From the NCBI GenBank assembly GCA_945913025.1, contig CAMECJ010000009.1:1-61982 (forward strand): a DNA stretch of 61,982 bases. The letters run 5' to 3'. Below the pieces are notes generated by a model, which was not told the origin of the DNA, did no database searches, and worked only from the letters and a program-made list of their open reading frames with translations. This document shows positions 9,459 through 28,950 of the stretch, one piece after another. Numbering within the stretch: the stretch's first letter is position 1; each line of letters opens with the position of its first letter. The stretch comes from an uncultured Elusimicrobia bacterium (GTDB taxonomy: Bacteria; Elusimicrobiota; Elusimicrobia; Elusimicrobiales; Elusimicrobiaceae). A program made the translations under genes and the position numbers.

Positions 9459-9572
9459 CCGTATACAAAACGGGAACGGGGCAAGTGTTTTTGCCTTTTG
9501 TCCTTATTTCATTATTTTAAGAGTCCGATTTTGGGTGTTGCGCGGAAAATGATTGCATTTGTTTGTCTAAAC

Positions 9573-9587
9573 TGCTATAATAAAGTG
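9573..9587 (+). promoter_or_regulatory. Stable-RNA promoter of the initiator tRNA
   Basis: TATAAT at 9576-9581 with a weak -35 (TTGCAT, 9553-9558) at 17 bp. The 15-base string TGCTATAATAAAGTG recurs exactly on the minus strand at 57049-57063 in front of the structured RNA. The -10 box ends only four bases before the mature tRNA 5' end, so the primary transcript would have almost no 5' leader. Confidence 0.7.
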
Positions 9588-9659
9588 CGGGGTAGAGAAG
9601 CCTGGTATCTCGCAAGGCCCATAACCTTGAGATCACTGGTTCAAATCCAGTCCCCGCAA
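9586..9659 (+). tRNA. Initiator tRNA-fMet (CAT)
   Basis: A full cloverleaf can be folded: acceptor 9586-9592/9652-9658, D stem GAGA/TCTC with loop AGCCTGGTA, anticodon stem CAAGG/CCTTG with loop CCCATAA, T stem ACTGG/CCAGT with loop TTCAAAT, discriminator A. Initiator identity rests on the purine-pyrimidine pair A11-U24, the weak U1-A72 pair and the fMet-like D loop. Three oddities: base 33 is C instead of the near-universal U; the anticodon stem has A29-U41 in place of one of the three conserved G-C pairs; and CCA is not encoded. An elongator Met or Ile2 tRNA would normally have G1-C72 and a pyrimidine at 11. Confidence 0.92.
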
Positions 9660-9672
9660 GATTTTAATACTT

Positions 9673-9696
9673 ACCGCCCGAACGGGCGGTTTTTTT
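9673..9696 (+). terminator. tRNA-fMet terminator
   Basis: Perfect eight-pair stem ACCGCCCG/CGGGCGGT with a two-base loop and a run of seven T. Confidence 0.9.
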
Positions 9697-9708
9697 ATGC
9701 CTTTCCAC

Positions 9709-17722: not shown

Positions 17723-19213
17723 ATGCTTAAAAAAGGAACTTTGTTGTTGGCGGGAGCTTTATTATTGGTGTGCGGCGGCTGGGCTGCCGCGGCCGAGTCC
17801 TCCACGCCGCTGATTGTGGAGGGGAATTTTTCCACGCAAACCAACACGCCTTCCAAAGCGCAGGTGTTTAACCAAAAAGCCCGCGATGCTGAAATCGCTT
17901 CCTTAAACGAAAAACTTAAACTTCGCCGGAATGAAGAAGTGATTAAGCGGATTGAACAGCTTATCTCGCATAATTTTTTGGATAATCGTTTTTATCTTAC
18001 CTTAGCTCTTGCTTACGAGGGACTGGGCAAATACGATGATGTTATTTACTACGCTGCTCAGGCGATTGCCGTCGCGCCGCAGGATTCACGTGCGTATATT
18101 TTACGTGCGGGAGCCTATTTAAAACAAGGTCAGTACGAGCGCTGTCAGATGGATTTGGATACTGCGCTTAAATTGAATCCGAAATCCGCTTTGGCGCAAC
18201 AATATCAGGCCGAATTGGATAAGGAGACTTTCGTCGTGCGTACTCCGGAAGCGCCGGTTTCCGCTCCGCAGAAAAAATCATCTCCTACGTGGTTTATTAT
18301 GTATTTTATGGTGGTATTTGCGGCGATTTTGCTGTATGTCTATTGGCGTTACGAGGATGTTTTCCGAAGGCCGAAAAACGCTTTTTCCCGCAGAGAAGTG
18401 GAAGTAAAAGAACAGTACGATTTTATCCGCCAAATCGGCGAAGGCGGTATGGGCAAAGTGTATGAGGCGTATGACAAAGTGCTTAAGCGCAAAGCCGCTA
18501 TCAAGCGCGTACGGCCGGAACTGGTGCGCAGTGCATACGTGCGCGAACAGTTTTTGTCGGAAGCACGTATGGTGGCGCTTTTACGGCACCCGTGTATTGT
18601 GGAAATTTACACGGTTATTGAGTCCGAAAGTGCTCTTTATTTGGTGTTTGAATATGTGGACGGACAAACGCTTGAGACCCGTTTAGATATTGACGGACGG
18701 TTGCCGTTCTCCAAAGCCAAACAGATTTTTGAATATGTCTGCCGCGGGCTTCATTATGCCCATTCACAGGATATTATTCACTGTGACTTAAAACCCGGAA
18801 ACATTATGATTTACGGTAATGACCAGGCCAAAGTAATGGATTTCGGCGTGGCGAAAAAATCTGTTGACCACGAAACCGGCGCGCGCACGGTGGCGGGTAC
18901 CCCAGCTTATATGGCCCCCGAACAGCAGAAAGGATTTATGCGTAAGCAGTCGGACGTATACTCACTGGCGCTTTGTTTGTATGAGGCGCTTGTCGGGCAA
19001 GTGCCGTGGACAGTAAAAGGGTTTGATATCGCGAATAAAAAAATTGTTCCCGCGTCCAAATTGGCTCCCCATATTCCGCCGGCCGTGGACGGTTTATTGG
19101 CGGATGCGCTGAAGGAGGATCCGAAAGAGCGTATCCAGTCTATTGACGAATTTTGGAGTCGTTTGGAAGCGATTGATCCGTTGGAAGATGAACTGGAAGA
19201 AACCCATTATTAA
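17723..19213 (+). CDS. Membrane Ser/Thr protein kinase with N-terminal TPR domain
   Basis: 496 residues. A signal sequence (1-25) leads into a region with about three TPR-like repeats (70-175). One membrane helix follows (about 187-211), then a complete Hanks-type kinase (232-490): Gly loop GEGGMG (240-245), AIKR lysine, HCDLKPGN (353-360), DFG (373) and GTPAYMAPEQ. The predicted topology is periplasmic TPR sensor and cytoplasmic kinase, the reverse domain order of PknB, whose kinase is N-terminal. The catalytic loop has Cys where most kinases have Arg (HRD), making it a non-RD kinase. Substrates are unknown. The start is leaderless. Confidence 0.9.
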   Translation: MLKKGTLLLAGALLLVCGGWAAAAESSTPLIVEGNFSTQTNTPSKAQVFNQKARDAEIASLNEKLKLRRNEEVIKRIEQLISHNFLDNRFYLTLALAYEGLGKYDDVIYYAAQAIAVAPQDSRAYILRAGAYLKQGQYERCQMDLDTALKLNPKSALAQQYQAELDKETFVVRTPEAPVSAPQKKSSPTWFIMYFMVVFAAILLYVYWRYEDVFRRPKNAFSRREVEVKEQYDFIRQIGEGGMGKVYEAYDKVLKRKAAIKRVRPELVRSAYVREQFLSEARMVALLRHPCIVEIYTVIESESALYLVFEYVDGQTLETRLDIDGRLPFSKAKQIFEYVCRGLHYAHSQDIIHCDLKPGNIMIYGNDQAKVMDFGVAKKSVDHETGARTVAGTPAYMAPEQQKGFMRKQSDVYSLALCLYEALVGQVPWTVKGFDIANKKIVPASKLAPHIPPAVDGLLADALKEDPKERIQSIDEFWSRLEAIDPLEDELEETHY

Positions 19214-24263: not shown

Positions 24264-24607
24264 GGGGGTGTAATAGATTCGACGGGTATCTGTTGCCGCT
24301 CGGGAGCAAGTGCCGGTTGGCCAGGCCGGCTAAAATAGGGCCGCAAAAATAACTAACGACAATCAAGTCGCTTGGGCTAACGCTTAGTCCCACCGCGCTT
24401 TTGGCGTCTTCCATGCGCTGAAAGACCGCGGTTATCACATGGAATGCTGCAAAGCGGGCGCGGTTCGTCCGGCTTTGCCTAAGACCAACGAACCAAACCG
24501 CAAACATGCTGCTTCGCGCTTAGGTTGCGGTTAAACCAGCGAAGCTAAACTTGTAGCGCCTGAGAGGAGAGGATGTTCGGACGGGGGTGCGAATCCCCCC
24601 ACCTCCA
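24264..24607 (+). ncRNA. ssrA: tmRNA (trans-translation RNA)
   Basis: Rescues stalled ribosomes. The tRNA-like domain pairs GGGGGTG (24264-24270) with CACCTCC (24600-24606), with discriminator A and a T stem of five G-C pairs (24583-24599, loop TGCGAAT). The 5' segment has the conserved AGATTCGACGGG. The only open tag frame runs from GCA 24343 to TAG 24387 and reads AKITNDNQVAWANA. The tag ends Ala-Asn-Ala, not the usual Leu-Ala-Ala. CCA is not encoded. Confidence 0.95.
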
Positions 24608-24675
24608 CTTTTTCGGCTGAAAAAGTATAGGAAGCAAAAAGTTTTTTGTTCTTTTTCTGACAGCAGAAAAAGAAC
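24606..24675 (+). terminator. ssrA terminator and following hairpin
   Basis: A weak A/T stem (ACTTTTTC/GAAAAAGT, about 24607-24626) follows the tmRNA, then a perfect twelve-pair hairpin (24648-24675, loop ACAG). The word TTCTTTTTCTGACAG recurs inverted near 43507-43521, so this is another member of the dispersed repeat set. Confidence 0.6.
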
Positions 24676-27856: not shown

Positions 27857-28950
27857 CAGATGTTCATCCTTTTTTTCCACAGCCAGTACGCCGCCCCGAT
27901 CCCGACAAAAATCGGCAGCCACGGGCCCGGATAGGCGATCCACGTGTATTTTTTACCTAAAGACAAACCGAGCGTCAGCAGCAGGTAAAAGCTGAAAATA
28001 ATAATCACGCTGAACAACATTCCCCACCCTTTATTGGTGCGTTTGCCCAGCGAAAAACCGATCGGACAACTGACAAATAACAAAATAATGGGAGACAGCG
28101 CCAGTACGTTACGCATACTGATGCCGGTGCGGTATTCGTTGGCGGTTTCCGCGTCCAACGGGTTTTTGCGCAAACGGCGCAGCAGTTTGGTGGTGGTCAT
28201 TTCCCCCATACGCGGTGCGCGCCGGTGGGCGCGGAACAGCGAAATACTCATCGTGTAATCGTCAAAATTGGCTGCTATGATTGTGGAAGGATCCTTTTGG
28301 TCTATGCGCTGCATTTGCCCGTCTTTTAACTGCAGACCGATAGCGGTGTCGCTTAAAATCACTTTGCCGGAGGAGGCGTTTACTTTGGTGCTGAGTGCGC
28401 CTGCGTCATTCTTTTTGATTAAATGGATAAGTTCGGCCGCGTTAGTCAGCGGGTTAAGTTTTTCCAGATACAAGTCCCAGTCTCCCAAGTCGATAAAAGT
28501 TTGCGGTTCCAGCGTTACTTTGGTAATTTTGCTGCGCGCTTCGTCGCGGCGGTTTAAAAATTGTTTGTAACTGCGTGGTGTCAGCCAGTTGGCCATAATG
28601 ATTAAGATTACAGATAAAACGATAGCGCATGCAAGCAGCGGGCGGATAATTTCTTTAAAGGAAAATCCTGCCGCGCGCAAGGCAATCATTTCCCCTTGTT
28701 CGCTCATATTGGTCAGCGTCAGCAAAACGGCGATTTGAAAAGCCATTGGCGCGCTTAAACAGAATACATCCGGTAAAATGTTGAGTAAAGACGATACAAT
28801 CCAGCCCAGCCCCGTGCCGTACGTCATTGCCATATCCAGCACGCGGATGAAATGGTTCATAAAAATGACGAACGTCAAAATACCCACCACTCCCGCGAAG
28901 AAAGTGATTAAGCTTTTGGCAATGTAACGGGTAAATATGCTGATATGCAT
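27856..28950 (-). CDS. lptF: LPS export permease LptF-like
   Basis: 364-residue partner permease of the same family: six membrane helices with a central periplasmic domain, and NMSEQGEMIALRAAGFSFKEI, the conserved cytoplasmic coupling segment between helices. It opens the two-gene operon. TAAAAT (28957-28962) lies exactly six bases before the ATG and there is no Shine-Dalgarno site, so the transcript is probably leaderless. LptB is not in the window. Confidence 0.87.
   Translation of the reverse strand: MHISIFTRYIAKSLITFFAGVVGILTFVIFMNHFIRVLDMAMTYGTGLGWIVSSLLNILPDVFCLSAPMAFQIAVLLTLTNMSEQGEMIALRAAGFSFKEIIRPLLACAIVLSVILIIMANWLTPRSYKQFLNRRDEARSKITKVTLEPQTFIDLGDWDLYLEKLNPLTNAAELIHLIKKNDAGALSTKVNASSGKVILSDTAIGLQLKDGQMQRIDQKDPSTIIAANFDDYTMSISLFRAHRRAPRMGEMTTTKLLRRLRKNPLDAETANEYRTGISMRNVLALSPIILLFVSCPIGFSLGKRTNKGWGMLFSVIIIFSFYLLLTLGLSLGKKYTWIAYPGPWLPIFVGIGAAYWLWKKRMNI

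Follow-up and report, generated by a model that had tools for sequence, protein, structure and literature searches.

Cytosine 33 in the initiator tRNA of an Elusimicrobiota order: a recurrent bacterial substitution, separate from the A29-U41 pair found with it

Bacterial tRNAs are commonly regarded as having a near-invariant uridine at position 33, and three G-C pairs at 29-31/39-41 are commonly cited as highly conserved in bacterial tRNA-fMet. A passage of PMC8080527 describes U33 as bonding phosphate 36 in the U-turn of the anticodon loop and notes C33 in mammalian initiators, and part of PMC4611024 sets out an initiator-specific shape of the anticodon loop in which A37 contacts the G29-C41 pair. 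The initiator gene analysed here departs from the bacterial norm at both of these places. It lies within the window, by which is meant the whole stretch of 61,982 nucleotides that was analysed, and is made up as follows.

9586-9659, + strand: initiator tRNA(CAU) gene with no encoded CCA (ARAGORN; RF00005, 60.6 bits; identical 74-mer in 25 same-genus genomes).
9619, + strand: C33, in the loop CCCAUAA (9618-9624) with the anticodon CAT at 9620-9622 (read from the sequence; U33 in the genome's other 42 tRNAs).
9615-9627, + strand: A29 (9615) opposite U41 (9627) in place of G29-C41, with G30-C40 and G31-C39 retained (read from the sequence; present also in relatives with U33).
9553-9581, + strand: predicted promoter, TTGCAT at 9553-9558, a 17-bp spacer and a TG-extended -10 box TATAAT at 9576-9581 (read from the sequence; relatives share the layout).
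9673-9697, + strand: intrinsic terminator-like site directly 3' of the tRNA, with a stem at 9673-9690 followed by a T run (computed scan).

The single tRNA-CAT called at this place by ARAGORN and Rfam pairs U1-A72, A11-U24, C27-G43, A28-U42, A29-U41, G30-C40 and G31-C39, and its anticodon loop reads C32 C33 C34 A35 U36 A37 A38. A CAU anticodon together with an A11-U24 pair marks a bacterial initiator tRNA-fMet, and both are present, which bears out the identity proposed in an earlier, sequence-only reading. The same reading described a broken three-G-C stem; the replacement of G29-C41 by A29-U41 is there, so that two of the three pairs are kept, but the stem is not broken, as all five of its pairs are Watson-Crick and only 29-41 has been swapped. 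The 29-41 pair does not decide initiator membership here, because A29-U41 is also found in many relatives with U33. The T loop is TTCAAAT and lacks the A54 of eukaryotic C33 initiators, and the weak U1-A72 pair would be lost altogether if the RNA began at G2. With a terminator-like site directly behind it, the gene looks like a unit of its own; 0.6 such sites are expected by chance in the 401-base region. Elsewhere in the window a tmRNA gene was matched at 24264-24610 (RF00023, 130.8 bits), which was not listed by the ARAGORN run over the window.

The window's own genome (27 contigs, 97% complete) gave 43 tRNA matches, and all 42 of the others have U33. The search for further CAT tRNAs found two, both with U33 and elongator-type D arms, and thus no canonical tRNA-fMet and no second initiator among the 43 matches, in an assembly which also gave no match to 16S rRNA or to tRNAs Ile-GAU and Ala-UGC. 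For this reason a further copy in unassembled DNA is conceivable on the evidence of that genome alone. A single-contig relative (G102, 97% complete) gave one C33 match and no U33 match, and the gene at 9586-9659 is probably the cell's working, and probably its only, initiator.

The comparison with related tRNA-fMet genes showed that both substitutions are real and lineage-wide. Among 340 genomes of the phylum, an initiator pattern covering the D and anticodon arms was matched with C33 in 141 and with U33 in 123, both together only in G107, and neither in 77. Relaxed searches of these 77 gave 12 matches at first and later 25 of 72 re-searched, although several of the matches were other tRNAs, pieces or chance, and the remaining genomes stay without a call. 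In the window's order (families f1 and f2), 133 of the 149 genomes carry C33, 129 by the exact pattern and four by relaxed patterns (G081, G104, G105, G124), with 16 lacking a clear match and one (G107) having an added U33 copy. This second tRNA-fMet (L102, on contig C40) has no abutting promoter and differs in its variable loop and in the DNA upstream of it; the genome has a listed contamination of 4%, and the copy is probably foreign, possibly through contamination or transfer. Outside the order, C33 was found in three deeper families of other classes (f19, f28 and f29), and every other family that could be called clearly has U33. In a 16S tree built from 13 relatives and E. coli the C33 rows do not form one clade (AU p 0.0001) and the fewest changes of base 33 come to four; this tree has open forks and leaves f1 and f2 unjoined, though the group codes put both in one order. 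The scattered distribution of C33 in the phylum would reflect several gains, or fewer gains with losses, and even one gain followed by losses is conceivable.

The A29-U41 pair follows a different distribution. A29 is near-universal in the phylum, also with U33, and the exceptions among the matches listed are f3, f5, G205 and extra copies in G107 and G259; in two U33 rows (G214 and G222) it is the partner at 41 that is broken. As A29-U41 accompanies U33 in much of the phylum, and C33 accompanies G29-C41 or U29-A41 elsewhere, a coupling of the two was rejected: they are separate, inherited and unlinked substitutions, and the suggestion that they act together is not supported.

The sequence-only reading had also placed C33 mainly in eukaryotic initiators, a view that does not hold, as C33 in bacterial initiators is a recurrent state across several phyla. 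A pattern scan of the genome contigs for C33 with any pair other than A-U at 29-41 found at least 119 stretches in genomes of named species. Eighty of these loci were read (L186-L224, 39 loci, were left out) and 78 parsed as initiators with intact stems, L138 and L159 being dropped and L127 lacking its 5' end. Among the loci read are Weissella, Leuconostoc, Fructobacillus, Convivina and Fructilactobacillus, and also Phycisphaerales, Sedimentisphaerales, Saccharibacteria, Erysipelotrichaceae and Omnitrophota; culture-collection strains are represented, for example Weissella confusa DSM 20196 and Leuconostoc inhae DSM 15101. When 28 such genomes were searched for initiators with any base 33, 27 had only C33 and one, a Nocardioides MAG, had U33 as well. 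In a sample of the Leuconostoc family 205 of 251 genomes were matched, and the matches listed include 15 C33 genomes in which every listed copy is C33. No earlier report of C33 in bacterial initiators was found in the literature searched.

Viral contigs gave 68 and 56 stretches with C33 initiator patterns and at least 120 with U33 and A29-U41. The 124 C33 stretches (L225-L292 and L294-L349; L250, L266 and L282 were dropped from the 68) include many with an encoded CCA among the 68 that were read, and suggest either phage copies or hosts with C33. A broader pattern for purines at 33 matched one stretch only, a count which comes from viral contigs and not from cellular genomes; set against the 68 and 56, it makes position 33 look held to pyrimidines.

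The reading that we favour, with a probability of roughly 0.72, is that C33 is a recurrent substitution, separate from A29-U41 and tolerated in a tRNA that works only in the P site, in a molecule whose 5' end is probably set by the start of transcription; the tolerance and the start are what we infer, whereas the sequence, the distribution, the absence of linkage, the ordinary P-site positions and the conserved place of the promoter are observed. The initiator would enter the P site directly and be held there by ribosomal contacts, and so could lose the U33 hydrogen bond which elongator tRNAs need in the A site, with C being tolerated at 33 and purines seemingly not. The weaker U-turn may also make a C33 tRNA somewhat poorer in elongation, as in the use that animals would make of C33, and perhaps C33 is a weak mark of this kind.

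Ribosomal compensation for C33 was looked for at the P-site positions of 16S rRNA and in the tails of uS9 and uS13, and none was seen. Matches to 16S were found in 16 of 30 genomes, 13 of them long enough for use (the window's own genome gave none). Thirty-four positions, including the 790 loop, 926, 966-967, 1229-1230, 1338-1341 and 1399-1403, are as in E. coli in 12 of the 13 relatives, and the thirteenth (G047, C33) differs at 693 only. Positions 1335-1336, in the stem beside 1338, vary in both C33 and U33 groups, 1343 differs in G102 (C33), and the anti-Shine-Dalgarno sequence is intact. The uS9 tail ends in SKR or TKR in all 30 genomes, each ending occurring in both C33 and U33 genomes; uS13 was found in 29 of 30, and the 25 tails read (not those of G242, G244, G332 and G160) show by eye no change linked to C33. 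With ordinary P-site positions and an ordinary uS9 tail in both states, a standard ribosome seems to accept C33.

The second part of the favoured reading concerns the promoter. Only 4 nt (9582-9585) separate TATAAT from nucleotide 1 of the tRNA at 9586, an arrangement that a simple promoter scan omitted since TTGCAT fits TTGACA at only three of six places, and which is found again in relatives that differ in the rest of their upstream sequence. Scored with -35/-10 matrices and a cut-off that was chosen post hoc, 73 of 78 distinct initiator genes reached 8 or more, and in all 73 the best -35/-10 pair left a gap of 4-6 nt. These genes come from f1-f3, f5-f7, f9, f11-f16, f18, f28 and f29, after removal of duplicates (L060/L091 and L090/L096) and a piece (L086); in four of the five below the cut-off the best site is TATAAT at gap 5, and in the fifth, L084, it lies elsewhere. 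Controls behaved otherwise: in f21 and f23-f27 seven of ten genes scored, with gaps of 11-25, and in f19 none of three; among C33 initiators from other phyla 71 genes were readable and 31 of them scored, none at gap 4-6; and of the 42 other tRNAs in the window's genome 20 scored, one of them at gap 4-6 (the second gene of a tandem tRNA-Pro pair), while without the cut-off seven of the 42 stand at gap 3-7. The abutting promoter is absent from f19, f21 and f23-f27 and is thus not phylum-wide. A linkage between C33 and the abutting promoter was rejected, as f19 has C33 without it and f14/f15 have it with U33.

In bacteria the start point usually lies some 7 nt downstream of the -10 box, on a purine preceded by a pyrimidine. 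With the box 4-6 nt before nucleotide 1, this spacing points to a start at nucleotide 1 or G2, and the initiator tRNA is probably transcribed from one of these, without an RNase P leader, so that its 5' end would be fixed by where transcription begins instead of by RNase P. The window's genome contains an RNase P RNA (RF00010, 212.8 bits) and most of the other scoring tRNAs have room for a leader, which makes the layout special to the initiator in this genome. If the abutting promoter does set the 5' end, the gene would give a bacterial example of a leaderless tRNA in the presence of RNase P, and initiator identity would be tied to the position of the promoter; no report of a bacterial leaderless tRNA was found in the literature searched.

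A bolder version, in which many families of the phylum transcribe the initiator leaderless from G2, giving a 5'-triphosphate and a permanently unpaired A72 and bypassing RNase P, is put forward as tentative and somewhat doubtful. With such a start the RNA would lack nucleotide 1 and the U1-A72 pair could not form, which would account for the gene's freedom to read U1-A72, a pair able to form in an ordinary initiator; initiator identity would then be set by promoter position. U1-A72 occurs in 63 of the 78 genes from abutting-promoter families, in none of 13 from f19, f21 and f23-f27 and in five of 77 C33 genes from other phyla, although these counts, like those for the promoter, are inflated by relatedness. 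The association is not strict, as U1-A72 is found in L182 behind what looks like a normal leader, and in L175 and L180 at gaps of about 8-9 nt.

Among the alternatives to simple tolerance, the one that survives best, although we consider it rather unlikely, is that C33 is an adaptive mark against elongation, weakening the U-turn, making the tRNA poor in the A site and so offsetting a weak mark such as U1-A72. C33 is confined to the initiator among the genome's tRNAs, many C33 genes in the phylum read U1-A72, and eukaryotic or mammalian initiators have C33 (in passages of PMC9023262 and PMC8080527). However, U1-A72 also occurs with U33 (10 of 14 genes in f14/f15), and the C33 genes of other phyla mostly have a mismatch at 1-72, with T1-A72 in five of 77; a linkage between C33 and the 1-72 pair was rejected on these grounds. 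The persistence of C33 through a whole order is as compatible with selection for a role as with tolerance alone.

Less probable again, and in our opinion improbable, is that C33 shields the gene or the tRNA from parasites, whether group I introns with U33 at their 5' splice site or anticodon-loop nucleases. Group I introns (RF00028, 59-65 bits) do interrupt tRNA-fMet directly after U33 in three genes of the U33 family f5 (L650, L652 and L653), partial fMet genes lie beside other DNA in f2, C33 initiators occur on viral contigs, and phage tRNAs are reported to evade VapC through anticodon-loop changes (in part of PMC10264068). Against this, the introns are in few genomes, the fMet genes of f2 are broken up despite C33, and phages generally avoid encoding tRNA-fMet where its anticodon is the VapC target (same part of PMC10264068). 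Cyanobacteria are known to have group I introns in their fMet genes (a passage of PMC8450103), and L649 (f4) has the same split tRNA-fMet halves with no Rfam match. The partial copies in f2 are L076 (G041, where the piece adjoins an intact copy), L086 (G055), and L087 and L088 (G044); each is a 5' or a 3' half of the gene, broken off within the anticodon loop, and they possibly reflect mobile elements that target this gene.

The earlier proposal that C33 and A29-U41 alter the selection of start codons and favour leaderless mRNAs now looks very improbable. TANAAT is enriched exactly 12 nt before ATG or GTG in f1 (15 against 2.9 expected per offset) and f2 (5 against 0.7), so that some leaderless mRNAs are likely there, and the pooled U33 families are flat at -12 (4 against 3.9). 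However, the other C33 families have a weak peak or none (f29, 5 against 2.1; f28, 1 against 0.4; f19, 0 against 0.4), U33 family f11 has 2 against 0.3, and U33 families f15 and f14 have an excess of TANNNT at -13 (7 against 1.7 and 4 against 0.9); moreover, C33 and A29-U41 are unlinked. A start-codon count, which is crude, small and confounded with GC, for the most part declines as GC rises, with no pattern that follows C33 and with f6 (17 starts) lying off the trend, and lends no support to a change in start-codon choice. What stands of the proposal is that leaderless-looking starts exist in the window's family, where some leaderless mRNAs are likely; what does not is a clean association with C33 across families. 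In the window, candidate ATG starts at 17723 and 48099 (+) and at 28950, 17639 and 36004 (-) show weak Shine-Dalgarno pairing and are preceded by a TANAAT-like box that begins exactly 12 nt before them; they are likely to belong to leaderless mRNAs.

A sequencing error, a pseudogene or C-to-U editing that restores U33 is scarcely credible, given C33 in 141 genomes of the phylum and in culture-collection strains, with intact stems, and C33 is not an error or a chance event, as the same 74-mer stands in 25 same-genus genomes besides the window's own; in the RNA, C33 could be edited or modified.

Set beside known initiators, the gene resembles E. coli-type tRNA-fMet in its CAU anticodon, A11-U24, G30-C40, G31-C39, A37 and A38 and in similar acceptor and T arms, but differs in having C33, A29-U41 instead of G29-C41, U1-A72 instead of a C1xA72 mismatch, and an abutting promoter. 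With the animal cytosolic initiator it shares C33 in the initiator only, whereas its T loop is of the T54 type and its D arm bacterial, and a common origin is not implied. The leaderless tRNA genes of Nanoarchaeum equitans, as described in part of PMC10100707, likewise have the promoter placed for a start at the mature 5' end; here, however, the gene is an initiator, the promoter is of the bacterial -10/-35 kind, the start is predicted from sequence, and the cell is not one without RNase P, as the RF00010 match shows. The C33 initiators of Weissella, Leuconostoc, Phycisphaerales, Saccharibacteria and other bacteria have the same loop CCCAUAA but a G-C or U-A pair at 29-41 (the set searched excluded A-U) and a mostly mismatched 1-72. 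As C33 is fixed in several bacterial lineages, cultured lactic acid bacteria among them, these initiators make it possible to test directly if the U-turn base serves mainly for decoding in the A site.
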